Shown: positions 1 through 38,561 of the stretch, in pieces
Layout: every line of letters starts with the position of its first letter
Position numbering within the stretch: the stretch's first letter is position 1
Source of the DNA: an uncultured Paracoccus sp.
GTDB lineage: Bacteria; Pseudomonadota; Alphaproteobacteria; Rhodobacterales; Rhodobacteraceae
Reading direction: 5' to 3'
DNA length: 64,000 nucleotides
Assembly: GCF_937873615.1 (NCBI RefSeq)
Contig: NZ_CALMYP010000001.1
Location: 1 to 64,000 of the forward strand
Program-made: the position numbers and the translations under genes
Notes under the pieces: generated by a model
Database searches by the model: none
The model's input: the letters and a program-made list of their open reading frames with translations, nothing else
Told to the model about the DNA's origin: nothing

Positions 1-28
1 GTTTGAAAGGAACCGGCGTCTCCGTCAA

Positions 29-274
29 ATGTGCGAAAGAATTTGTACGTTATCCATCATCGACGGCTATCCCTTCTCCATCGAAATATACCGCGCCGAA
101 ACGGATCAGAACTGGATGCTTGAGGTCGTCGACCAGGATGGCACCAGTCATGTCTGGGACGACCAATTCTCTTCCGACAAGGATGCCAGAAATGCCGCCA
201 TTCAGGCCATCGAGGAAGAAGGCGCCATCGCCTTCATGCGCGGTGACAATGTCATCCAGTTCCCCGAACGGTGA
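29..274 (+). CDS. Small hypothetical protein
   Basis: An open frame of 81 codons rich in acidic residues, with no signal peptide or membrane segment. The composition and the clean stop look like a real small soluble protein, but I do not recognise the family. The frame stays open upstream to the window edge, so the true start may lie outside. The ATG used here has no well-spaced ribosome binding site. It is followed by a gene-free stretch before the methyltransferase cassette and need not belong to it. Confidence 0.5.
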   Translation: MCERICTLSIIDGYPFSIEIYRAETDQNWMLEVVDQDGTSHVWDDQFSSDKDARNAAIQAIEEEGAIAFMRGDNVIQFPER

Positions 275-608
275 TGCGCGACGCTGATAGCGCCACAAGA
301 CGCATGAACGGCCCGAAGCGGACTCTCGGCCACCTCAGAGCCAGCGTCGGCTTCACGCCCGTCCAAGCCGTTTCGGTATCGACATGCGTCCGATACTTGC
401 CCTACGTTCAGATGACCGATCTGGGCCGGTTCGCTGACCAGTCAGGTTGTGCCGGTGCCGATTGAGTGCTCCTTTCAATGAGGCTTCCGAAATGTGCTGA
501 CGTTGGAGTACTCCGCCAAACTACCGATCGGACGAGACGCCCAAGAACGTCGAGGGAGCATTGCTCACATCGCTTCGTGTGTTGCGACACATCAAAACAT
601 GTGCCACT
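275..608. other. Gene-free stretch
   Basis: About 330 bases between the small hypothetical gene and the Xre-type gene. Short frames on both strands have implausible composition and no start signals. I see no RNA gene or repeat apart from the operator-like words at its right end. Confidence 0.5.
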
Positions 609-626
609 CTACGTCAAACACTACGT
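609..626 (+). promoter_or_regulatory. Operator-like CTACGT direct repeat
   Basis: The hexamer CTACGT occurs twice, starting at 609 and 621, just ahead of the GTG start of the Xre-type gene at 643. Short repeats directly upstream of a small HTH gene fit an autoregulatory site, as for controller proteins of restriction-modification systems. It is not a recognised C-box. The role is inferred from position. Confidence 0.35.
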
Positions 627-642
627 AGGATGAAATATTGAG

Positions 643-930
643 GTGCCGTACGCTGAATTCCTTGCCGAGCTTGAGCGCGCGGCTCTCAGTGTGCGCGGCT
701 TTGCTGACCTCATCGGTATGAACCCCAATTCGATCACTAACTATGCCGGTCGGGGAGAGGTGCCCCAGCACATCGCACTTGTTGCCGTCCTCGTCGCTGA
801 AATGGCAACGAGCGGAGGCGACTATCGCACCGCGATTGCAAAAGTTGCGCCAACGAAGAAGCCGCGCGGAGGGACCCGGCGCGGCCATTTCGGCGGCGAC
901 CGTCAGGCAAGTCTGGATCTGCTGCCGTGA
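643..930 (+). CDS. Xre-like helix-turn-helix regulator
   Basis: A 95-residue protein. Residues 5-45 read as a helix-turn-helix (FADLIGMNPNSITNYAGRGEVP), matching the Xre/phage-repressor layout of a short helix, a turn and a recognition helix. The C-terminal third is basic (KKPRGGTRRGH). The start is GTG, with repeats just upstream that could be its operator. It lies 27 bases before the methyltransferase on the same strand, so it probably controls that operon. An adaptor role other than repression cannot be excluded. Confidence 0.75.
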   Translation: MPYAEFLAELERAALSVRGFADLIGMNPNSITNYAGRGEVPQHIALVAVLVAEMATSGGDYRTAIAKVAPTKKPRGGTRRGHFGGDRQASLDLLP

Positions 931-957
931 GCTCGTCGATGCCACTAGGACCGGATC

Positions 958-3900
958 ATGACTGATTGGCTGACCCGGCTCGAACCGTTCGGCGCCGATC
1001 GGCAAGCACTGCGCTTGCTTGATGCCGACTGCCCAGAACTGCTGCCCTATGCGACGCTGACAAACGCGCGGCGCGACAGCAATTCGATCCTCGGGGTCGT
1101 TGGCGCCGTCTATGAATGGCAGGATGCACCACTGATCTTTCTGGTGGATGCCGACCAAATCGAGGGCGTCACTCAAATCCACCAACTCCGTCGCCTTCTC
1201 GCGATGCGCGGCGATGCGCCCTATCTCGGCATCGCTGCACCTGGTCGACTGGACGTTTATGCTATCGCGCTTGATCACAATACACCCGCGCAGGCGCGTT
1301 TGGCCATCAATGCGTCCGGCGAGGCGCTCAAGGATCTGTTTCCGCATCTGGCCAATCGCCGTCCAAGTGCGACGCGTACTAGACAGAGCTGGATTTCCAA
1401 TGTGGTCCTCAACCTTCTGACTGAGGCGATTGATCGGCTGATCGATCTCGATCTCGACCACGGAGACGCGATCTCCCTTGTAGGACGGGCACTGTTTGCG
1501 CGATTCTTGGGCGATCGCGAGCTTTTGCCGGCGGATCTGGAATCACCCGAAGTCGCCGCCGCTCTGTTCGATAATGCGGACAATGCCTGCGCGACCAGCG
1601 CTTGGCTGGACAGAACTTTCAACGGCGATCTACTGCCGTTGTCGGAAAATATTTTCGAGATCCTACCTACGGATGCCTATCAGGTGCTCGGCAACATCAT
1701 GATGCGCGCACCCGGGGACCAGCTCTTTCTTGGTTGGGCAGAACGCTGGGATCGGCTCGACTTCGCTCACATCCCCGTCGGAGTGCTCAGCCAAGCCTAC
1801 GAGCTTTACCTGCGCAGCCATGCTCCGGAAAAGCAGCGCAAAGAGGGCGGCTTCTACACGCCGCGGCCGATCGCCGACCTGCTTGTCCGGGCATCATTTC
1901 GCGCGCTAGAGCGGGACGGCTCGAGCGCAGCCGCACGCGTCCTCGATCCTGCGGCAGGCGCCGGCGTATTCTTACTGACGGCCTTCCGCGAACTCGTCGC
2001 GGCACGATGGCGCGCCGACGGCAAGCGACCCGACACTCAGCGCTTGCGCCAGATCCTCTATGGCCAGATCACAGGCTTCGACATCAACGAGGAGGCATTG
2101 CGCTTCGCCGCACTCGCGCTTTACCTTGTCTCGATCGAACTAGATCCGCAGCCACAGCCAGTCGACAAACTTGGCTTCGATGATCTTCGAGGCAAGGTTC
2201 TCCACCTCGTCGCCAGCGAAGAGCGAGTGCTGGGCGCTGGCCTCGGCAGTCTCGGCCCCCTCGTCGGCGAAGCGCATCGGGGGCGGTACGACATGGTTGT
2301 CGGCAACCCTCCGTGGTCTACCGGCACCAAGCTGGCTGATTGGCGATTAGTGCTGGAGACGGTCTCGCGCATCGCCAGCGAACGACATGGCGCAAAGATT
2401 GCCCCACCGCTTCCCAACGAGGTGCTCGATCTTCCTTTCGTTTGGCGTGCGATGGAATGGGCAAAGCCGGGCGGCCAGATTGCGTTCGCTCTACACGCTC
2501 GCCTGCTTTTCCAACAGGGTGACGGTATGGTCGACGCGCGCCGGATGCTCTTCCAAGCGCTCGACATTACTTCAGTCATCAACGGTGTCGAACTGCGTCA
2601 AACCAAGGTTTGGCCAGAAATCTCGGCCCCATTCTGCATGCTCATCGCAACCAACCAAGTGCCGGAGACCGGCGCGGGATTCCGACTGATCAGTCCCCGC
2701 CTCGAAACGACGCTCAATGCCTCGGGAACGATGCGTGTCGACGCCCACTCAGCCGAGATCGTCGCGACCCAGCAGATGGTTGAGACGCCCGACATCCTCA
2801 AAATTCTGTTCCGCGGAACGAAGTCCGACCTAGGCTTGGTCCAGCGGATTCGCGGTAAGGAATTTCCAACGCTAGAGACATTCTGGCGCGATGCCGTCGG
2901 CATCTCGACACGCGGCCGCATGGTTGGCTCAGGACAGGGATATCAGCAGCTCCGGCGGAGCAGCCGCACGAGAAAAAACGGAGACGGGCTCCCGGGCGCC
3001 GATGCGGCCTATCTGCACGGTCTGCCTGACGTTACGGTCAATTCCCTTGATGACCTGCTCATCGATACAGAACGCCTTCAAACGTTTCGGCATTCGCGCA
3101 TTCACGACCCCCGAGATCCGCGCCTCTTCCAAGCGCCTCTCGTGATCGTTCACAAGTCTCCCCCTGCTGACCGGGGGCGTATCCGCGTCGGCGTAGCTGA
3201 CTGCCAAGTCGCCTATAATGAGAATTTCTATGGCTATTCGCCAAGTGGATTTGAGCGCGCCAGCGAACTTGCACGCTATATTGCACTCGTGCTCGGCAGC
3301 AAGTTTGCGCTGTGGTTCACGCTGATCACCAGCGGCGAATTCGGGTTCGAGCGAGAGGTGATCGAAAAGACTACCATCGACCGTATTCCGCTTCCCGACT
3401 TCCGTTGCCTCCAGCCTGCCGACTGGGAGAAAATCCTCCAGCTCTTTGAAGACGTGTGCAGATCCGCTTCAGCTTGGGAAGACGTGGATCGCTGGGTCGC
3501 AAGTCTCTATGGCCTAGGCGCCGGTGACTTGCAGATCATCACCGACACGCTGTCCTACAATTTGCCCTTCGCTGAGATCAAATTGGCCGCTCAGGCACGT
3601 CCGGATCCGAAGGCCGCCGAGGATTTCTGCTTAGTCCTTCAAAATGAACTGGCGCCTTGGGCGAAGCGGTTCGGCACATCGCTCAGCGTTCGTATGATCG
3701 CCAGTCGATCGACCTCACCGTGGATGGGTTTTCTACTACAGACGGGGGCAAATACCTCTGATGCAGGGGTCCAGCAGCATTGGGAGGCATTACTCTCGGT
3801 CGCCGACGCTACGGCAGCAACCGAGTTAATGGTGGAAGACGGGAGCGGCGCGCTCCTCATTGGGCGTCTCGCCCAAAGCCGGTATTGGAGCTATACTCAA

Positions 3901-3963
3901 GCGCGTCTCTTAGCCCAGCACATCATCTGGTCGCGCCTCGACATCTTAAAGAGGCGAGGTTGA
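958..3963 (+). CDS. Large N6-adenine DNA methyltransferase (Eco57I/type IIG-like)
   Basis: A 1001-residue protein that should transfer a methyl group from S-adenosylmethionine to adenine in DNA. A GGFYTPRPIADLLV segment precedes motif I, DPAAGAG, at about residue 330; motif IV is NPPW at about 450. The first 280 residues are an unassigned domain without an obvious nuclease motif. The C-terminal half (LGSKFALWFTLITSGEFG) resembles target-recognition regions of Eco57I-class enzymes. The downstream nuclease-like gene starts 2 bases after its stop, implying translational coupling. It may be the modification half of a restriction system or a BREX/DISARM-like methylase; no other genes of those systems are visible. 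Confidence 0.92.
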   Translation: MTDWLTRLEPFGADRQALRLLDADCPELLPYATLTNARRDSNSILGVVGAVYEWQDAPLIFLVDADQIEGVTQIHQLRRLLAMRGDAPYLGIAAPGRLDVYAIALDHNTPAQARLAINASGEALKDLFPHLANRRPSATRTRQSWISNVVLNLLTEAIDRLIDLDLDHGDAISLVGRALFARFLGDRELLPADLESPEVAAALFDNADNACATSAWLDRTFNGDLLPLSENIFEILPTDAYQVLGNIMMRAPGDQLFLGWAERWDRLDFAHIPVGVLSQAYELYLRSHAPEKQRKEGGFYTPRPIADLLVRASFRALERDGSSAAARVLDPAAGAGVFLLTAFRELVAARWRADGKRPDTQRLRQILYGQITGFDINEEALRFAALALYLVSIELDPQPQPVDKLGFDDLRGKVLHLVASEERVLGAGLGSLGPLVGEAHRGRYDMVVGNPPWSTGTKLADWRLVLETVSRIASERHGAKIAPPLPNEVLDLPFVWRAMEWAKPGGQIAFALHARLLFQQGDGMVDARRMLFQALDITSVINGVELRQTKVWPEISAPFCMLIATNQVPETGAGFRLISPRLETTLNASGTMRVDAHSAEIVATQQMVETPDILKILFRGTKSDLGLVQRIRGKEFPTLETFWRDAVGISTRGRMVGSGQGYQQLRRSSRTRKNGDGLPGADAAYLHGLPDVTVNSLDDLLIDTERLQTFRHSRIHDPRDPRLFQAPLVIVHKSPPADRGRIRVGVADCQVAYNENFYGYSPSGFERASELARYIALVLGSKFALWFTLITSGEFGFEREVIEKTTIDRIPLPDFRCLQPADWEKILQLFEDVCRSASAWEDVDRWVASLYGLGAGDLQIITDTLSYNLPFAEIKLAAQARPDPKAAEDFCLVLQNELAPWAKRFGTSLSVRMIASRSTSPWMGFLLQTGANTSDAGVQQHWEALLSVADATAATELMVEDGSGALLIGRLAQSRYWSYTQARLLAQHIIWSRLDILKRRG

Positions 3964-3965
3964 GG

Positions 3966-4682
3966 ATGAGTTCGTCGGCGCTTTTGCCTCGTCCGGACCA
4001 GATCGCGGAACTAACACGCGGTTTAGATTTGCCCTTGGCGGCGATCGAAGAGGTGTATCTGCAAATCATCACCGAAGGCGTGGTCAACGCATTCCAAGAC
4101 ATTCGCGCCAGCGCATTCACCTCCGTCACAACCGGCGACGAGGCCGAGGTCACCGCGCTTTTGGTGACCCGACTCAATCGCATGATCGAGGAGGATACGG
4201 TCTGGCGCCAACTCGTCACTTGCGTGGTAAGGGGCGCCGAGAGCCTGAGCTACAATGGCGAGCATTTGGAAAAGCGCCCTGACCTTTCGATCTTCTTGTC
4301 CGGGCGCGCGCTGCGCTTTCCGTTGATTGCCGAAGCGAAGATCATAGACACCACGCGTGGCGAGAATCTCTATTGCAGCCAAGGTCTCAGGCGCTTTCTC
4401 AATGGTCAATATGGCTGGGGTGGCCGCGAGGCTATCATGATTGCCTATGTGCGGGACGGGACCACGATCGCAGGTCGGCTACAACCCTATCTTGCACAAT
4501 CCGCTCAGACTGTGAGCTACGCCGTCAAAACCGCACCAATCGCGCTTGCGACCACCGTCTGCGACGCCGCCCGTTCAAGTCATGGCCGGTCTTTCCTTTA
4601 TTCGCATACGGCTCCGCCCGCCAACGCTCCGGGTACTGTCACTCTCTGGCATCTTTGGGTCAACGCATCACCGTCGCCATAA
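3966..4682 (+). CDS. PD-(D/E)XK nuclease-like partner of the methyltransferase
   Basis: A 238-residue protein starting at the ATG 2 bases after the methyltransferase stop. A longer in-frame reading from 3780 lies inside the methyltransferase gene and was rejected. It contains D106 (KRPDLSIFL), then about 17 residues later E123-x-K125 (LIAEAKI), preceded by an acidic helix: the layout of a PD-(D/E)XK nuclease core. I do not recognise the family. Next to a large adenine methyltransferase it is the natural candidate for the restriction endonuclease, though this is inferred from motif and context only. The late genes of prophage 1 converge on it from the right. Confidence 0.8.
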   Translation: MSSSALLPRPDQIAELTRGLDLPLAAIEEVYLQIITEGVVNAFQDIRASAFTSVTTGDEAEVTALLVTRLNRMIEEDTVWRQLVTCVVRGAESLSYNGEHLEKRPDLSIFLSGRALRFPLIAEAKIIDTTRGENLYCSQGLRRFLNGQYGWGGREAIMIAYVRDGTTIAGRLQPYLAQSAQTVSYAVKTAPIALATTVCDAARSSHGRSFLYSHTAPPANAPGTVTLWHLWVNASPSP

Positions 4683-4789
4683 CCAAGCCAGCAAACCAAA
4701 TATCTCGGGAAGGCAGCTACCAGTCGGACATCGGCCCCGAACCGGCCGTTCGTCCTTTTCGCAGCGAAAGGCAGCTCTCCGCCCAAGTT

Positions 4790-5056
4790 TCATCCTCTAC
4801 CGCCCAGTTCCGTCCCTTCACACGCCCGTGCCTGCCGCCGCAGCACATGGTAATCCGCCATCATCCCGGCGACGGCGGAATCCTCTGGCATCGCCTCCAA
4901 CTCTTCGGCCGCCCGTTTCTGCACTGCCGCCGGATAGTCCACCACCGGCGGGCAGGCGCCATGATCAGAACCTGCCGTCCCGCAGGCGCTCAGCAAGGTC
5001 ATCGCGATCACGGGGCCGATCCGCCCCGGCCTCCAGCATGTGACGAAGCGCATCAT
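4790..5056 (-). CDS. Probable o-spanin (Rz1-like lipoprotein)
   Basis: From the ATG at 5056 this gives an 88-residue product beginning with a basic stretch, a hydrophobic segment and the lipobox LLSAC, as expected for a lipoprotein. The rest is short and soluble. Its start lies inside the upstream i-spanin-like gene in another frame, the nested Rz/Rz1 arrangement of phage lysis cassettes. It would sit in the outer membrane and help disrupt it at lysis. Sequence identity to known Rz1 is not obvious; the call rests on lipobox, size and nesting. Confidence 0.65.
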   Translation of the reverse strand: MMRFVTCWRPGRIGPVIAMTLLSACGTAGSDHGACPPVVDYPAAVQKRAAEELEAMPEDSAVAGMMADYHVLRRQARACEGTELGGRG

Positions 5057-5204
5057 TGGTCCTTTCCGTGTTTTGCAGGCGCTCGGCCGCGCGACCGGCG
5101 GTTTCGCCGGTTCGCCTTGCGCCAAGGATGAAAAGAAGAATGGCCGCAATAAGGGCCAGCCAGGGCAACGCCCGCCGCCAGAGGGCGTTGAGGACGGCGA
5201 TCAT
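4965..5204 (-). CDS. Probable i-spanin (Rz-like)
   Basis: A 79-residue protein with one N-terminal transmembrane segment (about residues 12-28), then a charged coiled-coil-like periplasmic tail rich in Arg, Glu and Asp. This is the topology of an inner-membrane spanin. It overlaps the endolysin stop by 4 bases and contains the start of the lipoprotein gene in another frame. Confidence 0.7.
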   Translation of the reverse strand: MIAVLNALWRRALPWLALIAAILLFILGARRTGETAGRAAERLQNTERTNDALRHMLEAGADRPRDRDDLAERLRDGRF

Positions 5205-5869
5205 CGCCGCCCCCGCTTCCAGTCGTCGAGCCGGGCGTAGACGGTGACGGCGATGCCGGCCAGTGCCAGCGCGATGAAGGCCCAGCGGAAGGTATCGAGC
5301 CAGGGCAGCAGCGCCTGCACCGCGCCCTGCGTCTCGGCGATGCCGTCCTGCAGCACCTCGATCCCCGCTGCCCCGACCGTGGCGGCACCGGCTGTGCCGC
5401 CACCCTTCATGGTGCGGCTGTCCGCCAGGGACTCGCGCGCCGGAGGCCGGTCAACCGCAAAGCGCGAGGCCCGGTCCGGAAAGGGCTCGCCCCAGACCCG
5501 GGCCGGTCCGATATCGATATGGACGAAGTTCGACCGTGGATAGGTGCCGATGCCGGTAAATCCGGCCTCGCGCGCGGCGGCAATGAAACTTTCCGGATCG
5601 TGGTTCGCCATGGAGATATCGAAGGCGGCGCCGGAGAGGTGCTGCGATTTCTTCGCGCCACCGACGCGGGCATTGTGTTCGGGGCTGCGATAGGCGGAAT
5701 TGACGATCATTGGCCGGCCGAGGGCGCTGCGCAGTACCTGCAGCCGGTCGAGGGCTTCGGCGTTGACGAGCAGCTTGCCGGTGCCGCGGCAGGCGATCTC
5801 TGCCAGGGAAAAATCCGGCCAGCGCCATGCTTCGGCCGGGACATTGCGCCAGTGCTGATAGAAACTCAT
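5201..5869 (-). CDS. Phage endolysin, peptidase M15 family
   Basis: The start is taken at the ATG (MSFYQHW) preceded by GGAG. Residues 1-130 form an M15A-type peptidase domain: SAYRSPEHN, the zinc-binding SQHLSGAAFDIS and FVHIDIG supply the His and Asp ligands. These enzymes cleave peptide cross-links in murein. A Gly/Ala linker and one transmembrane segment near residues 195-215 follow, so it may be membrane-tethered before lysis. It lies directly upstream of the spanins. Confidence 0.9.
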   Translation of the reverse strand: MSFYQHWRNVPAEAWRWPDFSLAEIACRGTGKLLVNAEALDRLQVLRSALGRPMIVNSAYRSPEHNARVGGAKKSQHLSGAAFDISMANHDPESFIAAAREAGFTGIGTYPRSNFVHIDIGPARVWGEPFPDRASRFAVDRPPARESLADSRTMKGGGTAGAATVGAAGIEVLQDGIAETQGAVQALLPWLDTFRWAFIALALAGIAVTVYARLDDWKRGRR

Positions 5870-7407: not shown

Positions 7408-10400
7408 TCAGAACCAGAGTGTGGTGATGGGGGCGGCGCCCGGCCCGAAGGCCTGGCCGATCTGGGCGATGCGGAGGCGGAGACTGTCGCCCGGCCCGAG
7501 CAGCGCGCCCCAATCGGCCAGTTGCTGCGCGGCGGTATAGGTCACGCTGCTGGTCGATGCGGTCAGGGTGCGGATCGCGACCGCGCCGTCGAGGATCTCC
7601 ACCTGCCAGTCTTCCCGGGCTTCGCTCATCGGGATGGCGGCGGCGTTCCAGCTGTCGGCCGCCAGTGCCCGGTCGCGCCGGATCCAACGGATCTCCAGAT
7701 CGCCCGGCGCGCGGCCATGGCGCCATGGCTGCCGGACATGCACCGGCGCGAAGGGCCGGAGGCCGATGCCCGCGGGCGTGAAGCTGGCTGCCGCGTAGCT
7801 GTCATCGCTGACCGGCTGCGATGCCGGGCCGATGCGCCAGTTGGCGGGCAGTCCGAGATCTGCCTCGGGCACGGGCAGCGGCACCAGCTGCTCGTCCAGC
7901 ATGACGATGCGCGCGCCTGCTTCCACGACCGGCGCCATGTCCGGTTCCGTGCCGCGCTGCCCGCGCAGCAGTCTTGAGAGGCGATATCGCCCCGGTGCGA
8001 TCAGCTCGGCCCGGGCAAACTGCAGGACCTCCCAGCGTCCGTTCGGCTGTTGGAGTGCCATGGCGTTCTCACCGGCAAAGAGGCGGATATCGGTCACGCT
8101 TTCCAGCCTGCCGTCCAGAAGATCGAGATAGACCGCATTGCCGTGATCGAAGCGCGAGACGGGGCCGACATGCAGCGGCGCCACCAGCACGCCCATCCGC
8201 GCCCGGCGCGAAAATACCCTCATCAGATCGAAGCCCGAGCTTTCAAAGCTCCGGAACACCGCCATCTGTCCGGGCCATGGTTTTGCATGCGCGGCGATCA
8301 GCGCCTGATGCGGGGCCTGATCCTCGCGCAGCTGCGGCAGATCGAGAAAGGCAATGGTTGGCGGGCTGAAACTGACCGGGCGGGCCAGTGTCGCCGGTCG
8401 CGGGCTGCCGGGTGGCAGATCGTAATTGCCCCGGTCCTGTCGGATCGCCTCGATGGCGCGGGCGTCGGCATCGGCGACGGACAGAATCCGCATCTCCACC
8501 AGCCGGCCGTCATGATCCAGATGGATGACATCGCCCGGATCGAGGGCGAGGCGCGAGGGCGGCAGGCGGAAGGCGCCGGTCTCGCGGCCGGTCCAGGCCT
8601 CCATCAGGGCGCGGCGGCAGCGTCGCTCGGCCTCTTCGGGCGGGACGGCGACGGCAAAACTGTCCGAGGCGACGCGGCTGGCCTCGACCGTGATGCGGCG
8701 CGCCTCGACGGTGAGGCCGTCATAATCCTCGTCCGAGCGGGCGACCTGCCACTTCAGAGCCTGCGGCAGTTCGGTCTCCTGTCCCCGGCTCAGTTCCATG
8801 ACCTCGCCCTTGCCGGTGGCGACCATGCCCTCGGGCGACACCGTGGCGATCGGTGCCCGGCCGCGCATGATGAAGCGGATCACGCCCTCGCTCTCAACGG
8901 CGTCGAACCCGAACTGCCGCGCCAGCATGGTGATCGAGGTTCGGGGGCTTTCCAGCGCAGAAATGACAAACCCGTCGCAGGCGCCGGCGAGGCCCGTGAC
9001 GTCGATCCAGGCCTCGGGCATGCCGGCGCGCAGGCAGAGATGGCGGATCAGGGCGGCCAGCGAGACCGCGCCCAGCCGCCCGGTCAGCCAGTGACCGAGG
9101 CGCCAGTTCGCTCCGTCCGACCAGATATCGGGGAGTTCCGGAAAGAACGGATACGGCCGGGCATCCCATGTCCATGCCGCGCATTCGGCCAGATCGACCA
9201 TGCGGCCGGGATATTCCGAGGAGGCCGGGTTGTTCGACGGCTCGCCCCAGAAGAGATATGTGGCTTCGAGACAGGCCCGCTGAATGGCATCGTCGCGCCA
9301 GCCGCGCGAAAAATACGGCAGGAAGCTTTCCGAGGACTTCGGATCGTAGAAGACATTGGGCTGGTTGGTGCCGCGATCCACGGCGGGACAGCCGAGTTCG
9401 GTGAAGCGGATCGGCTTTGACTGCGGCAGCCATGCGGTCGGGGCGGCGGATTCCACACCACCCGGCCGGTCGTAATGCCGGTTCGACCACCAGCCCATAA
9501 GATCCTTGCTGCGGAAGACCCATGGTTTGCCATGGGCGCCATCGGTGATCGGTGTCCGGATCTGCGCGGCCCGGTCGGCGGTAGAGGCATAGAACCAGTC
9601 ATATCCTTCGCCGCCCGCGATGTTGGATTGCAGATAGACGCGGTCATGGATCGCGGGCCAGCCTGCCTTTGCATCGAGATGATCCCCGCCATCGCGCCAG
9701 TCCGAGAGCGGCATGTAATTGTCGATGCCGACGAAATCGATGCTCTCATCTGCCCAGAGCGGATCGAGGTGGAAGAACACGTCGCCGCTGCCGTCCTCCG
9801 GATGATGCCCGAAATATTCCGACCAGTCGGCAGCATAGCCGATCCTTGTCGCTGGCCCGAGAATGGCCCGCACCGCGGCGGCGAGCGAGCGAAGCTGCGT
9901 CACGGCCGGATAGGCGGAGGCTGCCGATCTGATCCGGGTCAGCCCGCGCAGTTCCGAGCCGATCAGGAAGGCATCGACGCCGCCGGCCAGGGCGCAGAGA
10001 TGGGCATTGTGCAGGATCATGCGGCGAAAACCCCAGTCATCTGCCGCGCCGGTCCATGTCACCGTCTCTCCGGCAATGGTGAAATCCGAGGGCTCTGCGC
10101 TGCCGAAGAACCCCGCGACCTGATCGGCGGCGGCTGTGCTTCGGTCCACCGATCCGGCAAAGCCTGCGGCCGGGGCACAGGTGATGCGCCCGCGCCAGGG
10201 CAGCACCGGCTGGCCGAGGGTTCCGGCATGATCGGAATACGGGTCGGGCAGGCTGTTGCCGACCGGAATATCCATCATCAGGAAGGGATAGAAGGTGACG
10301 CGATGACCGCGGGCGCGAAGGGCGCGGATCGCCTCGATGACCGAAAAATCCGCAGGCGTGCCGCCATAGACCGGGCGTCCCTGATCGTCGGGGCTGACCA

Positions 10401-11430
10401 CATGTGCCGCATCGCGGATGATCCCATTCACCGACCATGCCGGCGTGGTCGCCTTCACCGGTATCTCGACCTTCGGCCGGATGTTGCAGTGACCGGCGCG
10501 CAGATCGTCGCCGAACCAGGAGACCACCAGCGAAACCGACCGGACCGCCGGGACCATGGCGTCCAGCCGGTCGAGCGAGACCTCCAGATCAGGTGTGCCC
10601 GCCATGGCATTGACATTCTCCACACCGCCCTCGGCCTTGCGGACCACCGAGGTGGCATAGGCGAACTCGCCCGAGGCCGGGATCATCGTCACCGCCGGTA
10701 CCAGCCCCTCGGCCGTGTCGGGATCTGCCAGAGGCCGAAAAACCTCGAAACTGAGCTGGGGCAGGCGATTGCCGAATGGCGCCAGCGGCAGGTCTTCGAA
10801 AACGACATAGGCGGTGCCACGATAAGCTGGGGTCGCATCCGTTCCCATCTTCGCGGCGATGAAGGGATCGGGCTGCTGATTCTCATCGCCCGGATACCAG
10901 CGCCATGTGACATCCTTCAGATCGACGATATCACCATCGGCCCAGATCCGGCCGATGCCGGTAATCCCTCGCCCTGCCGGGCCTCCGCCGCCTCCATTCT
11001 CTCCACCGGAGAGAATGGTCCCTGCGGGACCGGCTTCGGAACCTTCGGCCAGTGCGACCGCGAAAGACGCATAGTACAGATATTCCGTGGTCTCGACTTT
11101 TGGCCCGCCGCCCTTGCCGCCGCCCTGTTTCCTGCGGTTCACCTCTTCGCGGAAATCCGTGGCCCAGACGATATTGCCGCCGATGCGCATGCGGCCATAG
11201 AGGCGCGGGATCACGACGCCCTCGCTGGCCGAGGTCAGGCGCAGGCTGTCGAGACGCTGCCCTTCGATCCGTTGGCCGGGCATCAGAGAGGAAACGATCC
11301 AGCTGTCGACTATGCTGCCGATGGTGGAGCCGATCATGCCGCCAATGGCCGCACCCGAGAACCCCAGCACGGCGCCGCCGAAGCCGCTGCCGATGGCGGT
11401 GCCGACCGCGCCCAGAATGATCGTGGCCAT
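7408..11430 (-). CDS. Tail-tip/baseplate megaprotein (GTA g15-like)
   Basis: A 1340-residue protein close to the usual 1300 of the GTA host-specificity or 'megatron' baseplate protein. It starts with a Gly-rich hydrophobic segment (GSGFGGAVLGFSGAAIGGMIG), typical of tail-tip proteins that cross membranes. A TIM-barrel GTA domain lies around residues 420-720 (GLTRIRSA, FVGIDNYMPLSDW, WVFRSKDLMGWWS), then a tail-hub-like domain and beta-rich C-terminal part. It forms the tail hub and probably contacts the host. It starts 4 bases after the NlpC/P60 gene. The homologous gene is missing from prophage 2. Confidence 0.95.
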   Translation of the reverse strand: MATIILGAVGTAIGSGFGGAVLGFSGAAIGGMIGSTIGSIVDSWIVSSLMPGQRIEGQRLDSLRLTSASEGVVIPRLYGRMRIGGNIVWATDFREEVNRRKQGGGKGGGPKVETTEYLYYASFAVALAEGSEAGPAGTILSGGENGGGGGPAGRGITGIGRIWADGDIVDLKDVTWRWYPGDENQQPDPFIAAKMGTDATPAYRGTAYVVFEDLPLAPFGNRLPQLSFEVFRPLADPDTAEGLVPAVTMIPASGEFAYATSVVRKAEGGVENVNAMAGTPDLEVSLDRLDAMVPAVRSVSLVVSWFGDDLRAGHCNIRPKVEIPVKATTPAWSVNGIIRDAAHVVSPDDQGRPVYGGTPADFSVIEAIRALRARGHRVTFYPFLMMDIPVGNSLPDPYSDHAGTLGQPVLPWRGRITCAPAAGFAGSVDRSTAAADQVAGFFGSAEPSDFTIAGETVTWTGAADDWGFRRMILHNAHLCALAGGVDAFLIGSELRGLTRIRSAASAYPAVTQLRSLAAAVRAILGPATRIGYAADWSEYFGHHPEDGSGDVFFHLDPLWADESIDFVGIDNYMPLSDWRDGGDHLDAKAGWPAIHDRVYLQSNIAGGEGYDWFYASTADRAAQIRTPITDGAHGKPWVFRSKDLMGWWSNRHYDRPGGVESAAPTAWLPQSKPIRFTELGCPAVDRGTNQPNVFYDPKSSESFLPYFSRGWRDDAIQRACLEATYLFWGEPSNNPASSEYPGRMVDLAECAAWTWDARPYPFFPELPDIWSDGANWRLGHWLTGRLGAVSLAALIRHLCLRAGMPEAWIDVTGLAGACDGFVISALESPRTSITMLARQFGFDAVESEGVIRFIMRGRAPIATVSPEGMVATGKGEVMELSRGQETELPQALKWQVARSDEDYDGLTVEARRITVEASRVASDSFAVAVPPEEAERRCRRALMEAWTGRETGAFRLPPSRLALDPGDVIHLDHDGRLVEMRILSVADADARAIEAIRQDRGNYDLPPGSPRPATLARPVSFSPPTIAFLDLPQLREDQAPHQALIAAHAKPWPGQMAVFRSFESSGFDLMRVFSRRARMGVLVAPLHVGPVSRFDHGNAVYLDLLDGRLESVTDIRLFAGENAMALQQPNGRWEVLQFARAELIAPGRYRLSRLLRGQRGTEPDMAPVVEAGARIVMLDEQLVPLPVPEADLGLPANWRIGPASQPVSDDSYAAASFTPAGIGLRPFAPVHVRQPWRHGRAPGDLEIRWIRRDRALAADSWNAAAIPMSEAREDWQVEILDGAVAIRTLTASTSSVTYTAAQQLADWGALLGPGDSLRLRIAQIGQAFGPGAAPITTLWF

Positions 11431-27342: not shown

Positions 27343-27723
27343 TTATCTTCTCTCTGCCTCATCCGCCTTCCAGCAGCTGATGCGCCAGAGTTCGGAGCGC
27401 ATGCGCGGCAACCAGCGGGACCACGCCGTTGCCACAGAGGCGAAGCCGGTCCACCCGCTGGGCCAGCCCATCAGCGCCTCGACGAATTGCGGGTTCAAGG
27501 TCCGGCGCTGATCGGAGGTATCGTTGCCAGCCATCGTCGTCGTGAGGACCTGGCGGCCAAGGAGGCCGTTCACTGGCGTGTTTGCCAGCGTCGTCGCCCC
27601 GTCCTTGTGGTCCCGTGCGGTCGGCGTCATCCACAGTCCCGCCGAATGCGTCAGATCGGCCGATCTGCGATTGCCCGCGCTCGGTTTGTTCCCATCCGTC
27701 GCCAGCGGCGTCGGCCAGAGGCG
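27343..27723 (-). other. Second coding-like frame overlapping the end of dcm
   Basis: In another minus-strand frame the last 380 bases read as a protein-like stretch: LWPTPLATDGNKPSAGNRR, LWMTPTARDHKDGAT, LNPQFVEALMGWPSGW, then TAWSRWLPRMRSELW. From memory this WPTP/LNP-x-F-V-E-x-LMGWP pattern occurs in proteins encoded at or fused to phage cytosine methyltransferases. The dcm frame is also convincing here (motif X), so the DNA seems to carry two messages. No clear start codon is chosen; expression could be by internal start or frameshift. Confidence 0.55.
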
Positions 27724-28351
27724 CAGGATTTCCGTCCGGTTGCCGCCGCTCGAGCGGATGCCGGAGCAGGCGCGCGGGGTCGGCCAGCACGTCCCCTTCG
27801 CGGATGGCGAGGATGAAGAGGCGTTCCCGCTTGTGGGGCGCGCCGACTTCCGCCGCCGTAAACAATCCTGCCGCAAGCCTGTAGCCCATGCCGACCAGTC
27901 CGCCGGCGACTTCGGGGAAGCCGAGGCGGAGATGATGGGCGACATTTTCGAGGAAGACGAAGGGCGGTTCGCATTCGCCGACGATCCGGGCGACATGCGG
28001 CCAGAGGTGGCGCGGATCGTCCGCGCCCCGGCGCTTGCCCGCCACGCTGAACGGCTGGCACGGATATCCCGCAGAGACGATATCCACCGCGCCGCGCCAC
28101 GGCTTGCCGTCGAATGTGGCAATGTCGTCCCAGAGAGGCGCGTGATCCAGGGCCTGGTCTTCCATCCGCGCCACGAGAGTGGCCGCAGCGAAGGTTTCCC
28201 GCTCGACATGGCCCACAGTTCGATATCCGGGCAGGGCGAGGGTGAGACCGAGATCGATCCCGCCCGCGCCGGAGCACAGCGAGAGGCCGAAGAGGCAGGT
28301 GTCATCGGCCCCGGCATCACGTCCGGGGGCAGGTAAAGCCAGGTCATTCAT
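27359..28351 (-). CDS. dcm: DNA cytosine-5 methyltransferase
   Basis: A 330-residue C5 cytosine methyltransferase. Visible motifs: LCSGAGGIDLGL (motif I), GYPCQPFSVAGKR with the catalytic Cys (motif IV), FLENVAHH (VI), RRERLFIL-like KRERLFILA (VIII) and C-terminal GNGVVPLVA (X). No restriction enzyme is adjacent, so it is probably an orphan phage enzyme that shields phage DNA. Its last 120 codons overlap a second coding-like frame, listed separately. Confidence 0.93.
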   Translation of the reverse strand: MNDLALPAPGRDAGADDTCLFGLSLCSGAGGIDLGLTLALPGYRTVGHVERETFAAATLVARMEDQALDHAPLWDDIATFDGKPWRGAVDIVSAGYPCQPFSVAGKRRGADDPRHLWPHVARIVGECEPPFVFLENVAHHLRLGFPEVAGGLVGMGYRLAAGLFTAAEVGAPHKRERLFILAIREGDVLADPARLLRHPLERRQPDGNPAPLADAAGDGWEQTERGQSQIGRSDAFGGTVDDADRTGPQGRGDDAGKHASERPPWPPGPHDDDGWQRYLRSAPDLEPAIRRGADGLAQRVDRLRLCGNGVVPLVAAHALRTLAHQLLEGG

Positions 28352-28355
28352 GGTC

Positions 28356-29621
28356 TCAGCGTCTGTTGGCGGAAAGATCGGCGAAGGTCTTGTCCGTGCC
28401 CTCCAGCACCGCCGCCTGGCCCGTCAGGTTCTGCCAGCGGGTGATGGCGACATCGACATAGGCCGGGTTCAGCTCGATCCCGTAGCAGACCCGGCCGGTC
28501 GTCTCGGCGGCGATCAGCGTGGTGCCGGATCCCATGAAGGGCTCGTACACCGCTTGCCCGGGACTTGAGTTGTTCAGGATCGGCCGGCGCATGCATTCGA
28601 CCGGCTTCTGCGTGCCATGCACCGTTTCCGCGTCCTGATCCCTGTTGGCGATGTGCCAGAGCGTGGTCTGCTTGCGATCCCCCGCCCAGTGGCCCTTGCC
28701 GGTCTTGCGCACCGCGTACCAGCAGGGTTCGTGCTGCCAGTGGTAATCGCCGCGGCTCAGGACCAGCCGGTCCTTGGCCCAGACGATCTGCGAGCGGATG
28801 TTGAAACCGCAGGCGATCAGGCTGTCGGCGACGGTGGTGGCGTGGAGGGCGCCGTGCCAGACATAAGCGACATCGCCCGGAAACAGCGCCCAGGCCTCGC
28901 GCCAGTCGGCCCGGTCGTCGTTCAGCACCTTGCCGGTGCGTTTGGTCCTGGCGGCGCCAGACTGGTTGCGCCAACTCGGGTCGTATTCCACCCCATAGGG
29001 CGGGTCGGTGACCATCAGCATCGGTTTTACCCCGGCCAGCAGCTTATCGACATCGGTCGCAACCGTGGAATCGCCGCAGAGCAGGCGGTGATTGCCCATG
29101 ATCCAGAGATCGCCGGGGCGGGAGATCGGTTCGACCGGGGGCTCAGGCACCTCGTCCTCGCCATCGACCGCGCCGTCCTCGCTGGCATCAAAGTCGCCCA
29201 GCAGAGCATCCAGTTCGGCCTCGGAAAACCCGATCAGGTCGAGGTCGAAATCGATCTCGCGCAGGCTTTCCAGCTCGGCGCGCAGCAGCTCTTCGTCCCA
29301 GCCGGCATTCTCGGCGATCCTGTTGTCGGCGATGACCAGCGCCCGGCGCTGCGCCTCGGTCAGGTGGTCCAGAACGATCACCGGCACCTCGGCCAGCCCG
29401 AGCTTCTGCGCCGCCATGAGGCGACCGTGCCCGGCGATGATGACAGCATCACCGCCGATCAGGATCGGGTTGGTGAAGCCGAATTCGGCGATGGAGGCGG
29501 CGATCTGGGCGATCTGATCCTCGGAATGGGTGCGGGCATTGCGGGCGTAAGGGACCAGCTTTGCGGCATCCATCATTTCGATCTGCAAGGCACGTCCTCC
29601 GTTTCCGCCGTCGCGGCTCAT
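28356..29621 (-). CDS. ParB-domain DNA adenine/cytosine-N4 methyltransferase
   Basis: A 421-residue protein from the ATG at 29621. Residues 15-110 are a ParB/sulfiredoxin-like domain (YARNARTHSEDQIAQIAASIAEFGFTNPILI, IAGHGRLMAA). The C-terminal 250 residues are a beta-class methyltransferase with catalytic DPPYG before the SAM motif YEPFMGSGTTLIAAE. Phages often carry this combination and use it to modify their own DNA. It lies 4 bases upstream of dcm. Confidence 0.93.
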   Translation of the reverse strand: MSRDGGNGGRALQIEMMDAAKLVPYARNARTHSEDQIAQIAASIAEFGFTNPILIGGDAVIIAGHGRLMAAQKLGLAEVPVIVLDHLTEAQRRALVIADNRIAENAGWDEELLRAELESLREIDFDLDLIGFSEAELDALLGDFDASEDGAVDGEDEVPEPPVEPISRPGDLWIMGNHRLLCGDSTVATDVDKLLAGVKPMLMVTDPPYGVEYDPSWRNQSGAARTKRTGKVLNDDRADWREAWALFPGDVAYVWHGALHATTVADSLIACGFNIRSQIVWAKDRLVLSRGDYHWQHEPCWYAVRKTGKGHWAGDRKQTTLWHIANRDQDAETVHGTQKPVECMRRPILNNSSPGQAVYEPFMGSGTTLIAAETTGRVCYGIELNPAYVDVAITRWQNLTGQAAVLEGTDKTFADLSANRR

Positions 29622-29677
29622 GAAAACGCCGGGCGGTGGGACGCCCGGCGGTTGGTTTCCTGTGATCGGGGCAGGGC

Positions 29678-29720
29678 GCGAACCCTGCGAACCCAAAGCT
29701 GCGAACCCGGGCGCGAACCC
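29678..29720. repeat. Four GCGAACCC direct repeats
   Basis: The octamer GCGAACCC occurs at 29678, 29687, 29701 and 29713, all in the same orientation, in a 280-base gap between the ParB-methyltransferase and the DUF6362-like gene. Close same-strand repeats in a phage intergenic gap may be protein-binding iterons. I see nothing else in the gap. Confidence 0.6.
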
Positions 29721-35102: not shown

Positions 35103-36578
35103 TCAGATCTTTTCGGTCACCGCCTCGAAGCTCGCCATCGCCGCACCAAGCTGGTCCATGATTTCTGCGGCAAGTACGTCCGGCTCGGGCAGATTGTCCA
35201 AATCGGTCATTGACGCATCGCGCAGCCAGAACAGGTCCAGGCTCGCCTTATCGCGCTGCAGCAGCTCCTCGCGCGTGTAGGCGCGCCAGCGGCCGTCGGG
35301 ATTGTCGTCACTCCAAGCGGGTACACGCTTGTGACGGTTGTCGGCATTGTAGCATTTCACAAAGTCGGACAGATGCGCGTGAGTCAGCGGCTTCTGTTTC
35401 AAGGTATGATGCACGTTGGTGCGGTAGTCGTAGAACCAGACCTTCGATGTCTGCGGATCCGGGCTGGCGGCGCGGTTATCGAAGAAGATGACGTTTGCCT
35501 TCACGCCTTGGGCATAGAAGATACCGGTCGGCAGCCGCAGGATGGTATGCAGATCAGTGTTCTGCAGCAGCTTTCTGCGGATGGTCTCGCCTGCTCCGCC
35601 TTCGAACAGCACATTATCTGGCACGACGACAGCCGCCCGTCCTGTGGTTTTCAGCATTGCGCGAATATGTTGCACAAAGTTCAGCTGTTTGTTTGACGTG
35701 GTCGCCCAGAAGTCCTGGCGATTGTAGGTGAGGTCGTCAGTTTCCTGCTCACCTTCCGCGTTGGTGAAGCTCATCGAGCTTTTCTTGCCGAAGGGTGGGT
35801 TGGCCAGCACGTAATCAAAGGTATCCGACGGCGGCGCGACCAGGGCATCAGCTGGGGACACCAGCGTATCGCCGGTCATTTCGCCGATGCCATGCAGATA
35901 CATGTTCATCAGGCACAGACGACGCGTGCCGGCGACGATCTCGTTGCCGTGAAAGGTCGAGTGTTTCAGGAACTCCTTCTGGTCCTTGTCCAAGGAGTAG
36001 TTCTCAGGGTCTGTCAGGAAATCATGCGCAGCCAGAAAGAACCCACCCGTACCGCAAGCCGGATCGGCGATGGTCTTGCCGGGTTCGGGCCGCACGCATT
36101 CCACCATCGCCCGGATCAGCGCGCGGGGGGTGAAATATTGGCCCGCGCCGGACCTTGTGTCCTCGGCATTGCGTTCCAGCAGGCCCTCATAGATATCGCC
36201 TTTGACGTCGGCGCCCAGCATGACCCACTTTTCACCATCCACCATGTCGATCAGGCGGAACAGCTTGGCCGGGTCGGTGATCTTGTTTTGGGCCTTGGTG
36301 AAGATCTGGCCCAGCATGCCCTTCTGTTCGCCCAGCTTGCGCAGCAGGGCGATGTAATGCGCCTCCAGCTCAGCCCCCTTGCGCGATGTCAGACTGGTCC
36401 AGTCATAGCCTGCGGGGATGCCGACATCGCGGTGATACGGCGGCTTGCCGTATTCGTCCGCCATTTTCAGGAAGATCAGATAGGTCAGCTGTTCCAGATA
36501 GTCGCCATAGCCGACGCCGTCGTCGCGCAGCGTCGTGCAGAAGCTCCAGACTTTGGAGACGATGGAGGCGGTATTCAT
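35103..36578 (-). CDS. hsdM: Type I restriction-modification methyltransferase subunit
   Basis: A 491-residue HsdM. The N-terminal helical domain has YLEQLTYLIFLKMADEYG; YFTPRALIRAMVECVRPEPG leads to motif I DPACGTGGFFLAAHD, and motif IV is NPPFGKKSS. It methylates adenine at the site chosen by HsdS. It starts 1 base after the small nuclease-like gene and is the last gene of the hsdR-hsdS-nuclease-hsdM operon. Confidence 0.96.
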   Translation of the reverse strand: MNTASIVSKVWSFCTTLRDDGVGYGDYLEQLTYLIFLKMADEYGKPPYHRDVGIPAGYDWTSLTSRKGAELEAHYIALLRKLGEQKGMLGQIFTKAQNKITDPAKLFRLIDMVDGEKWVMLGADVKGDIYEGLLERNAEDTRSGAGQYFTPRALIRAMVECVRPEPGKTIADPACGTGGFFLAAHDFLTDPENYSLDKDQKEFLKHSTFHGNEIVAGTRRLCLMNMYLHGIGEMTGDTLVSPADALVAPPSDTFDYVLANPPFGKKSSMSFTNAEGEQETDDLTYNRQDFWATTSNKQLNFVQHIRAMLKTTGRAAVVVPDNVLFEGGAGETIRRKLLQNTDLHTILRLPTGIFYAQGVKANVIFFDNRAASPDPQTSKVWFYDYRTNVHHTLKQKPLTHAHLSDFVKCYNADNRHKRVPAWSDDNPDGRWRAYTREELLQRDKASLDLFWLRDASMTDLDNLPEPDVLAAEIMDQLGAAMASFEAVTEKI

Positions 36579-36579
36579 C

Positions 36580-37032
36580 TTAGTCCTCGTGAATGATGAG
36601 GGTGTCGCTGTCGCGGTCCAGTTCCCACATCTCGACGTCGGCCGGGATCATGTGCGCCTGTGTGCGACGGAAATAGGCCAGCAAGGATTCATCGCGCCCG
36701 TTGCGCAGGCTGCGCTCGACAAAGAAGATCTTGCGGTAATGCGGCGGCGCCATGTGGAAATAGAACATGGCCTCGGCCCAATTCTTCATCTTGGCACTGG
36801 GTATATTGCCACCAGCAGTCCAGGTCTGGCACTTGCACTCCACGATCACCGGCGGATCGTCTGAGCCGAGATCGAAGGCGTGGTTCTTGAGTCTATTGCT
36901 AAGGCCGCAGGGCACCTTGTGATTCAGTTCGAGGGGGAGGCCCTGCGATTCCAGGATAGCCCGAGCCCGAGCTTCGAAATCACGGCCGACATGGGCGTTG
37001 CTGATCGCGCCGGCTCTTTGGAAATTGTTCAC
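36580..37032 (-). CDS. Small PD-(D/E)XK-like protein inside the type I operon
   Basis: A 150-residue protein between hsdS (4-base overlap) and hsdM (1-base gap). HAFDLGSDDPPVIVECKC supplies D54, E65 and K67, the PD-(D/E)XK arrangement, with an acidic helix near E20 (FEARARAIL). FYFHMAPPHYRKIFFVERSLR follows. I recall similar proteins beside restriction systems but know no assigned function. It could be an extra nuclease or a DNA-end sensor. Perfect coupling within the operon argues for a joint role. Confidence 0.82.
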   Translation of the reverse strand: MNNFQRAGAISNAHVGRDFEARARAILESQGLPLELNHKVPCGLSNRLKNHAFDLGSDDPPVIVECKCQTWTAGGNIPSAKMKNWAEAMFYFHMAPPHYRKIFFVERSLRNGRDESLLAYFRRTQAHMIPADVEMWELDRDSDTLIIHED

Positions 37033-38561
37033 GCCGACACCTTGCGCTTGCCTTTCTTCGCGGTTGCCGCGCGTGCCTGCTGGATTCGTGCCAATAGAGC
37101 GGAGGCCGGTTCGTCGGTCGGATCCTGCGGGACAAGCTGGCCGGAGAACGCGCGCTTCAGGATGGATTGACGCAGAGCATCAGCGCGGGCTAGAGCGGCG
37201 TCGATCTCAGTTGCGAGACGATCAGCCGCGTCGAGGCGTGTGTCGAGGATGCGGACTATCTCGGCTTGTTCGGTCAGGCAAGGTAAAGGCAACGTGAAGC
37301 CGGAGACATGATCTTGATTGATTTTGTATATACCGGCGGTCGTACGCGCGGCGTCCTCAATTTGGCGGCGAATCGACCATGAATTCCAGCAGAGCAAAAA
37401 AAAGTCGGGTCGAACCACGGAAGCATCAAGGCGCACACGGATCATCGTATCAGGGAAGGCCACAGGCATCGGTTGATCCAACACTCGTCCGCCGATCCCA
37501 ACTAGCTTCTTACTTCCATTTCCACGAGCAACGAAGATATCGTCGTACTCAACGAGGAACGGAAAGGCATCATCCCGTGTCCAATTGCCTTCTTTTTGCT
37601 CCGAGAGGACGATTTTTCCATTTTTCAAAGCGGTGAGGCGCAACACTGGAAAGCCGCCGGACTTGTCCTTGACGGAACGACCGTTAATCAATGGCGCGCC
37701 TAGGATCGTTCCTACGCTTGTCACCGGCCATGGCGATAAATTTTCTGTGGCTTGGTACGTAAATTCAGGTTGCAGTTTAGGCTTCGGCGGCTTCTTGCCT
37801 TTCTCGCCCCCCTCTTTCCAAGTGACTACAGCCTCTTTCCATTCCGCGATATCGGCTTTGTACCGCGCCTCGCGTTCCTTGCGGATGCGGGCGAGGAGGG
37901 TTTGGGGGTCTTCCAGTTTGTCGGGGTTCTGGGCGCGCCAGTCGGCGGTGAGGCGGCCCTCGAAGGCCGCTTTCAGCAGGGATTGGCGATAGAGGCCAAG
38001 CGCGGCCTTCGCCGCCGCAAGGCTCTCGCCCCCCTTGTCGATCTCATCAAACAGCGCCTCTATCTTTTCCACGATGCGGCGTTGTTCGTTTGTCGGCGCA
38101 ACGGGCAAGTGAAAAGCCGACAGTCTAGGCATTTCGATGCTATGGACGGTCGTCCCGCCTTTGCGACAAGTAGCCAATATTGATTGCTCGAATGCCCGGA
38201 GCCCCCAAGCGACATAGCTGGAATCTACACTGTCCGGAAGCGCGAGCGCCTTAAGATCCTGGTTGAGTGCCGTTTCGACAGCAGTCACCGCAATCGGAAG
38301 GGTGTGCGCTAAAATCCCGGAGCGCGTTACAATTAAAACGGAATCAGGAGGAACTAATTTGGTCGCAGAATTATGAACCGCATCGGAAGTAATGCCGTCG
38401 ATAGCAGTTCTTATGACCTTAGATTTCATATCCTTTGGTGAAACCCAAGGGATGGGGCCGTCCCAAAACTGTGCGTTAGCTTTCGATGGCGTGCCGCCGC
38501 CGATCCATGTTCCAAAGTCGGAAAAGGCTGCGCTGGCCCAACCGGGCGGGAGTTCCGTCAT
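37029..38561 (-). CDS. hsdS: Type I restriction specificity subunit
   Basis: A 510-residue HsdS with two target-recognition regions (about residues 1-150 and 265-420) and conserved coiled-coil spacers (PTNEQRRIVEKIEALFDEID and LTEQAEIVRILDTRLDAADRLATEID). PPGWASAAFSDFGTWIGGGTPSK is the typical start. The second half is more AT-rich, as is common for exchanged recognition domains. It overlaps hsdR by 4 bases. Confidence 0.95.
   Translation of the reverse strand: MTELPPGWASAAFSDFGTWIGGGTPSKANAQFWDGPIPWVSPKDMKSKVIRTAIDGITSDAVHNSATKLVPPDSVLIVTRSGILAHTLPIAVTAVETALNQDLKALALPDSVDSSYVAWGLRAFEQSILATCRKGGTTVHSIEMPRLSAFHLPVAPTNEQRRIVEKIEALFDEIDKGGESLAAAKAALGLYRQSLLKAAFEGRLTADWRAQNPDKLEDPQTLLARIRKEREARYKADIAEWKEAVVTWKEGGEKGKKPPKPKLQPEFTYQATENLSPWPVTSVGTILGAPLINGRSVKDKSGGFPVLRLTALKNGKIVLSEQKEGNWTRDDAFPFLVEYDDIFVARGNGSKKLVGIGGRVLDQPMPVAFPDTMIRVRLDASVVRPDFFLLCWNSWSIRRQIEDAARTTAGIYKINQDHVSGFTLPLPCLTEQAEIVRILDTRLDAADRLATEIDAALARADALRQSILKRAFSGQLVPQDPTDEPASALLARIQQARAATAKKGKRKVSA

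Follow-up and report, generated by a model that had tools for sequence, protein, structure and literature searches.

A putative controller-regulated restriction-modification cassette with an uncatalogued nuclease family in an uncultured Paracoccus sp.

Locus organization

The DNA analyzed here, called the window throughout, is a stretch of 64,000 nucleotides from the genome of an uncultured Paracoccus sp. Close to its left end are three consecutive + strand open reading frames at 643-930, 958-3963, and 3966-4682, in the regulator-methyltransferase-nuclease order that the initial annotation of this DNA had read there. The first (643..930, GTG start, 95 amino acids) encodes an XRE-like regulator that is a probable controller. 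The second (958..3963, ATG start, 1001 amino acids) encodes an adenine-type DNA methyltransferase (MTase), recognized by library matches and motifs, and the third (3966..4682, ATG start, 238 amino acids) encodes a PD-(D/E)XK-type nuclease, recognized by its conserved residues and by profile alignment. The gap between the regulator and MTase genes is 27 nt and that between the MTase and nuclease genes is 2 nt; in two plasmid relatives, the latter two genes overlap by 4 nt. Ahead of the regulator, at 566..625 of the + strand, is an operator-like array of three tandem pseudo-palindromes with the consensus YACAT-N6-ATGTR and a start-to-start spacing of 22 bp.

The nearest relative was a 14.7-kb stretch of a Sphingomonas contig (L010), which gave a single DNA alignment with the window (81%). 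This alignment spans window positions 560-4679, starting just ahead of the first operator-like palindrome and stopping with the nuclease gene, and extends nowhere else in the window. Two other relatives aligned with the window over 561-4492 (L015) and over 639-4677 plus a 44-bp piece at 561-603 that corresponds to the operator region (L011). As bounded by DNA similarity to these relatives, the three genes form one cassette.

The first gene product had been called Xre-like, a description that is based on its homologues, which carry the annotation "XRE family transcriptional regulator" and are 63% and 58% identical to it, and not on any library match of its own: for the 95-residue protein, neither the Pfam, PADLOC, and NCBIfam scans (E up to 1) nor the PHROGs scan (E up to 0.001) gave a match. 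An XRE-like gene precedes the MTase gene in 22 loci, the window included. Among the 30 close loci described below, 17 have an XRE-like gene, 3 (L024, L027, and L029) have another small ORF judged by eye to be HTH-type, 4 have no recognized regulator, and 6 lack the upstream part. A small ORF also occupies the regulator position in several of the distant plasmid loci, and two of these ORFs are annotated as MerR family.

A tandem palindromic, operator-like sequence is present upstream of the regulator's own gene. The short repeats that had been noted there earlier, at 606-626, are indeed present and are part of this larger array, falling within its third, degenerate site. The first pseudo-palindrome is at 566-581 (CACATCGCTTCGTGTG) and the second is at 588-603 (CACATCAAAACATGTG); the third, at 610-625, has more than 2 mismatches and was placed by its spacing. 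Within 120 bp upstream of the regulator, a YACAT-N6-ATGTR site with at most 1 mismatch was found in 20 of 20 loci, and a second site 22 bp away with at most 2 mismatches was found in 19 of the 20, compared to a background of 0 to 0.07 sites per kb at 1 mismatch; the consensus was derived from these same regions, and the counts are thus a description with a background figure rather than an independent test. The 20 loci are those of the 22 XRE loci that remain when L046 and L048 are left out.

The arrangement resembles that of type II restriction-modification (R-M) systems with C proteins, such as Csp231I and PvuII. C-boxes are described as two tandem inverted repeats ahead of the C gene, and the C-box of Csp231I is given as CTAAG-n5-CTTAG in two copies (PMC4824078). 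The likeness lies in a small regulator gene that comes first and in the tandem palindromic sites before it, whereas the cassette differs in its operator sequence, in its regulator-MTase-nuclease order with the nuclease gene placed immediately behind the MTase gene, and in having a regulator that matches no library model.

The nuclease family and its pairing with the methyltransferase

The initial annotation had placed the catalytic core of the 238-residue protein at D106, E123, and K125. These residues were found at those positions and were invariant over 20 sequences with 16 to 66% identity to the window protein, as were Y136, F144, M158, H206, and H229; E59, G140, R143, Y149, and I225 were nearly so. 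The resulting conserved pattern is E59, D106, E123-A-K125, Y136-x3-G140-x2-R143-F144-x4-Y149, H206, and H229. Over 62 loci, D106, E123, and K125 were unvaried where present, with gaps only in the fragmentary copies L037 and L038. When the nuclease profile was compared by hhalign to six HSDR_N-type domains, each of which matches Pfam HSDR_N or HSDR_N_2 at E <0.01, the score was 41.1 (E 1.4e-5, probability 80), and 60 column shuffles of the same comparison scored at most 14.1. The alignment places D106 and the E-A-K on the HSDR_N motif and is limited to 41 columns around the D/E-x-K. The PD-(D/E)XK assignment is supported because the D/E-x-K residues are unvaried and because the profile is similar to those of HSDR_N domains, and the small protein thus appears to be the restriction-like nuclease that had been proposed. 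It shares the D-x(n)-E-x-K core with HSDR_N and HSDR_N_2 (PF04313 and PF13588) by profile alignment but differs from them in that the 20 members scanned have no significant Pfam match and in its additional conserved Y-x3-G-x2-RF-x4-Y, H206, and H229.

The unfamiliarity of this protein, also remarked on at the outset, was confirmed, as none of Pfam, PADLOC, NCBIfam, PHROGs, and the PDB sequences yielded a significant match to it. With E limits of 1 for Pfam, PADLOC, and NCBIfam and of 0.001 for PHROGs, the window nuclease itself had no match. Scans of the 20 members at E up to 1 returned no PADLOC model and, from Pfam, single-member chance rows to 5 families, the best at 0.043. Only chance-level rows were obtained when PDB sequences were searched with the nuclease and broad nuclease profiles, and no nuclease relative was found in viral contigs and phage records.

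The MTase and nuclease genes adjoin each other in 64 loci, the window included, down to about 20% identity. Of the proposed trio, the pair is conserved in all 64 loci and the homologous regulator, as third gene, in the 22 given above. Sixty-two of the 64 pass the nuclease HMM at 1e-8, and a same-strand MTase frame lies beside the nuclease in all 62, no two of which have identical nuclease C-terminal stretches. The records range from Alphaproteobacteria to MAGs labeled Acidobacteria, Chloroflexi, and Gemmatimonadetes.

These loci came from several searches. The close nuclease alignment, used as a profile against genome contigs, found 30 loci with the MTase family directly upstream in 30 of 30; the profile was made from the 4 closer sequences, the 7-sequence alignment being too divergent. 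In one of these loci, L039, which is counted as a pair, the nuclease is reduced to a 30-residue piece. A tblastn search with the nuclease gave four plasmid loci, and in all four, as in one distant class genome (G332), the nuclease is paired with the MTase. The broad nuclease profile (A7), run against 398 phylum and 198 family genomes, added 8 new genomes, 7 with an adjoining MTase and one (G848) with a nuclease fragment and no MTase. Searching 115 class genomes with the PADLOC model PDLC03623 found 4, all with the same gene pair, although one of them, G087, repeats a genome already in the broad-profile set. A tblastn search of plasmids with the MTase gave 48 records, five of which (H6-H10) were the nuclease-hit records again. 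Twenty of the remaining 43 were inspected, and a nuclease ORF was directly downstream in 18 (17 by HMM and L082 by motif only); the two exceptions were a type I HsdM (H43) and a Thermus protein (H44). Neither H3, whose coordinates are those of H2, nor G337, which is L029, was counted twice. Not every locus with an MTase profile match (E <1e-15) passes the nuclease HMM, and the six that fail it are L039 and L082, which enter the count as pairs through the fragment and the motif, respectively; L083, a type I HsdM; L084, the Thermus protein; and L074 and L075, which were found via another IIG model and for which stretches of up to 1.5 kb were checked.

The divergence of the MTases paralleled that of the nucleases (r = 0.94 over 21 taxa), a value that none of 2000 label permutations reached. 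Alignment A5 comprises the window and 20 of the 30 close loci; L011, L013, L028, L029, L031, L032, and L036-L039, with truncated or broken MTase frames, were left out. Alignment A6 holds 26 of the 30 plus the window, without L036-L039. Alignments A7 (20), A8 (17), and A9 (20) contain hand-picked diverse members, A8 without L007, L044, and L045 and A9 also without L046.

Two interpretations of this pairing have to be weighed, and they overlap in all but the question of partnership. In the one that we prefer, the nuclease is a dedicated partner of the MTase. In the other, the cassette is an ordinary type IIP-like R-M system whose nuclease works independently, as a homodimeric restriction enzyme that has a specificity of its own, and is linked to the MTase only as a neighboring gene. 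Type IIP-like restriction enzymes are typically of about the size of this 238-residue protein, which fits the second interpretation, and any linked R-M pair whose recognition site is stable should show co-divergence. No clear swapping of recognition regions was seen among 210 pairs of 21 MTases, which would also agree with it. A linked operon of two independent enzymes is co-inherited as well, and co-inheritance is therefore no proof of a complex. On the other hand, type II nucleases often change their MTase partners, and the constancy seen here contrasts with that: in the loci examined, the nuclease family stands beside the MTase family to about 20% identity, with the exception of one fragment. 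We regard the type IIP-like interpretation as a serious contender whose chances fall somewhat below even. A dedicated partnership seems the most likely because the two families stay paired over great divergence, and we favor a complex between the MTase and the nuclease, to which the near-exclusive pairing in the loci examined and the co-divergence point.

The methyltransferase and the type IIG label

The MTase matches the Pfam families N6_Mtase (E 3.8e-19), Eco57I, and MmeI_Mtase, and its motifs are intact, with D330, G334, and G336 in the SAM-binding motif and N450-P451-P452-W453. Over 69 aligned rows, D330, G334, G336, N450, and P452 were unvaried where present, while W453 was replaced by F in 9 and by Y in 1, and P451 was replaced by A in 1. 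An unassigned N-terminal region of 280 residues had been described for this protein. The N6_Mtase match does start at residue 276, but a PADLOC profile covers residues 134-812, leaving only about 130 residues unmatched. We read the architecture as an N-terminal domain of about 130 residues, a presumed helical connector, the N6_Mtase core at 276-564, and a presumed C-terminal target recognition region. Of 17 members scanned at E up to 1, 3 had TaqI_C-like recognition domains (best 3.6e-4); the window protein was not among them, and its recognition region is placed at the C terminus by architecture. Phages gave one weak match to the MTase core. At L044 (3971-6190), the MTase is without about 270 N-terminal residues, and the nuclease gene is still directly downstream.

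The PADLOC model PDLC03623 ("type IIG") matched 17 of 17 diverse MTases of the family at E <1e-20, the best at 2.8e-250 and the window protein at 5.6e-23, and PDLC03603 matched 13 of the 17. The MTase thus belongs to the profile family of PADLOC REase_MTase_IIG, from which the cassette differs in having its nuclease as a separate downstream gene and an N-terminal domain without a conserved catalytic motif. This domain, about residues 1-130 (958..1347, + strand), could be aligned across the family; in the alignment of 20 members, not one residue was invariant and no D/E-x-K column was conserved, and neither Pfam nor PDB contained a significant relative of the domain. Compared with the nuclease itself, it gave no match. 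The idea that it is a degenerate nuclease was tried and rejected: hhalign with HSDR_N-type domains gave an E value of 0.096 and a probability of 0.6, and 1 of 40 column shuffles equaled the score. In that nonsignificant alignment, FLVDAD stands opposite FLVEDK, a register that is suggestive and not evidence.

Because the N-terminal domain has no invariant residue, no conserved D/E-x-K, and no significant relative, we do not file the MTase as type IIG; the nuclease is a separate gene and, since a conserved D/E-x-K is missing from the N-terminal domain of the MTase, appears to act in trans. A search for fused comparators with two further PADLOC IIG models found 2 of 200 and 0 of 150 genomes. The Thermus protein L084 has an N-terminal KPD...EDK domain matching HSDR_N_2; it is not matched by the nuclease profile, and no gene is annotated directly after its own. 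That the cassette encodes a true type IIG enzyme followed by an unrelated gene would agree with the PADLOC label on all 17 MTases scanned, but the Thermus comparison, the absence of a conserved D/E-x-K from the N-terminal domain, and the conservation of the downstream gene with the MTase all argue against it. The family-wide pairing largely contradicts it, and we consider it the least probable of the explanations weighed here, with hardly any chance of being right.

Weak similarity of the MTase to PglX and MAD2 models raised the further idea of BREX- or MADS-like exclusion without target cleavage, in which the nuclease would be an accessory or an abortive effector. The scores were far below the curated cutoffs (37.9 versus 720 bits for MAD2 and 30.1 versus 900 for BREX-6 PglX), and DNA similarity to the nearest relative stops at the three-gene unit. 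No BREX or MADS multigene cluster is annotated beside the cassette in the four plasmid loci, as judged by annotation only. We find this explanation highly improbable.

Acquisition and decay of the cassette

In a close search of 101 genomes, comprising the window's own and its relatives, the nuclease was found only in the window's own genome, and the 198 family genomes searched with the broad profile added G908, a further family member with the pair, and G848, with a fragment. The G+C content of the cassette is 59.7%, compared to 64.7% for the window. The cassette looks horizontally acquired. A comparison of window positions 1-5400 with the rest found no exact repeat longer than 14 bases that could represent prophage attachment repeats flanking the cassette, and there is no tRNA within the window. 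Elsewhere in the family, an Agrobacterium plasmid (L005, 3035-9434) and a Jannaschia contig (L018, 38-6437) share 6.4 kb of 84% identical DNA that includes the regulator and most of the MTase gene, a likeness that suggests exchange between distant lineages.

Split or broken frames were found for the MTase in L007, L011, L028, L029, L037, L038, L045, and L085 and for the nuclease in L036-L038; they may reflect decay, true splitting, or sequencing error. The G848 locus (L066) carries a nuclease relic without an MTase at about 5290-5700, with a Y-C-x2-G-x2-RF-x2-GQYA stretch and a stop inside the match; a C-terminal piece of it was also recognized by eye. As judged from this relic, the cassette seems to decay in some genomes. 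If the broken frames are taken as decay, they might also fit a regulatory or orphan methylation cassette with a nuclease that is inactive or serves some other purpose. This is no more probable than the BREX- or MADS-like explanation: where present, the nuclease residues D106, E123, and K125 show no variation over 62 loci, nor do D330, G334, G336, N450, and P452 in the MTase.

Proposed function

Taken together, these observations make it likely, in our judgment, that the locus is a horizontally acquired, controller-regulated R-M cassette in which the nuclease is probably the dedicated partner of the MTase. It has the features of a type II R-M system, namely, adjoining MTase and nuclease genes, intact MTase motifs, and an intact catalytic signature in the nuclease. 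The MTase, an enzyme of the m6A class with its own presumed target recognition region, would mark a specific sequence in host DNA, and the 238-residue nuclease, encoded by the next gene of the presumed operon, would cut DNA without the mark, most likely as a trans subunit dedicated to the MTase and not as an enzyme that could be exchanged freely. The tandem palindromes before the regulator gene are probably bound by the XRE-like protein, which would set expression such that modification is established before restriction.

The initial annotation had suggested that the cassette may be an undescribed defense system. This holds in the sense of an uncatalogued R-M variant but not of a new kind of system, and activity against phages is a predicted property. 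A literature search, which had subscription papers and REBASE outside its scope, found no description of the MTase-nuclease pair, and the nuclease may possibly have been listed before as a putative restriction enzyme. HVO_A0006 of Haloferax volcanii, a PD-(D/E)XK protein for which joint action with a separate modification component has been suggested (PMC4389544), was considered as a counterpart of the cassette and set aside.

Pfam, PADLOC, NCBIfam, and PHROGs yielded no significant match for the restriction-type family to which the nuclease belongs, yet this family is paired with an MTase that PADLOC labels "IIG". If the proposed function is correct, some systems counted as type IIG would be two-subunit systems. 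A broader and more tentative proposal is that the family represents a "split IIG" class, with an MTase of IIG architecture whose N-terminal nuclease remnant serves as a docking domain, an obligate small nuclease acting in trans, and alternative controllers that are XRE-like or of another HTH type. We regard this class as conceivable but rather doubtful; if it exists, surveys based on the PADLOC model would record its systems as single-gene IIG and miss the nuclease. The family would be a source of new specificities and would allow a test of how an enzyme resembling IIG can pass its nuclease function on to a partner.

Genomic neighborhood

Position 1 of the window is the end of the contig (C1), and the left neighborhood of the cassette is cut off there. 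The prophage that the initial annotation had recognized beside the cassette is borne out by genes for an M15 peptidase, a GTA-type tail protein, a tape measure protein, and a capsid protein at 5.2-23 kb. The tail protein (7408-11430, - strand) has GTA TIM-barrel and Rcc01698-type domains (Pfam 3.9e-157), is of the kind found in gene transfer agents, and lies near the tape measure protein and a capsid-protease protein. Also in the phage region, at 28362-29696 (- strand), an N6_N4 DNA methylase carries a fused ParB-like domain at its N terminus; it may be a modification enzyme borne by the phage, and another phage-type DNA methyltransferase (phrog_1008) adjoins it at 27349-28347.

A type I system had likewise been reported nearby, and a complete-looking R-M set of HsdM, HsdS, and HsdR (EcoEI_R_C) is present about 30 kb from the cassette, at 35106-41308 (- strand). 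Beside these genes, at 42581-43561 (+ strand), a GAGSGKT motif recognized by eye marks what is presumably the N-terminal part of a UvrD/Rep-like helicase. At the window site, the type I system is the one element that speaks for the defense island proposed for this region. Among the 22 plasmid loci inspected that carry the cassette, 5 have annotated defense-type neighbors, a raw count without a background rate, and 17 have no clear defense neighbor in the flank that was read. By annotation, the neighbors are SIR2, DarT, and ABC-three-component genes at the first of these five loci and caspase-like and AbiE genes at the second, where further neighboring genes form what we take to resemble a Dnd-type set. 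At the other three of the five, the annotated neighbors are TIR in one, TIR and SIR2 in one, and Shedu and PIN in one.
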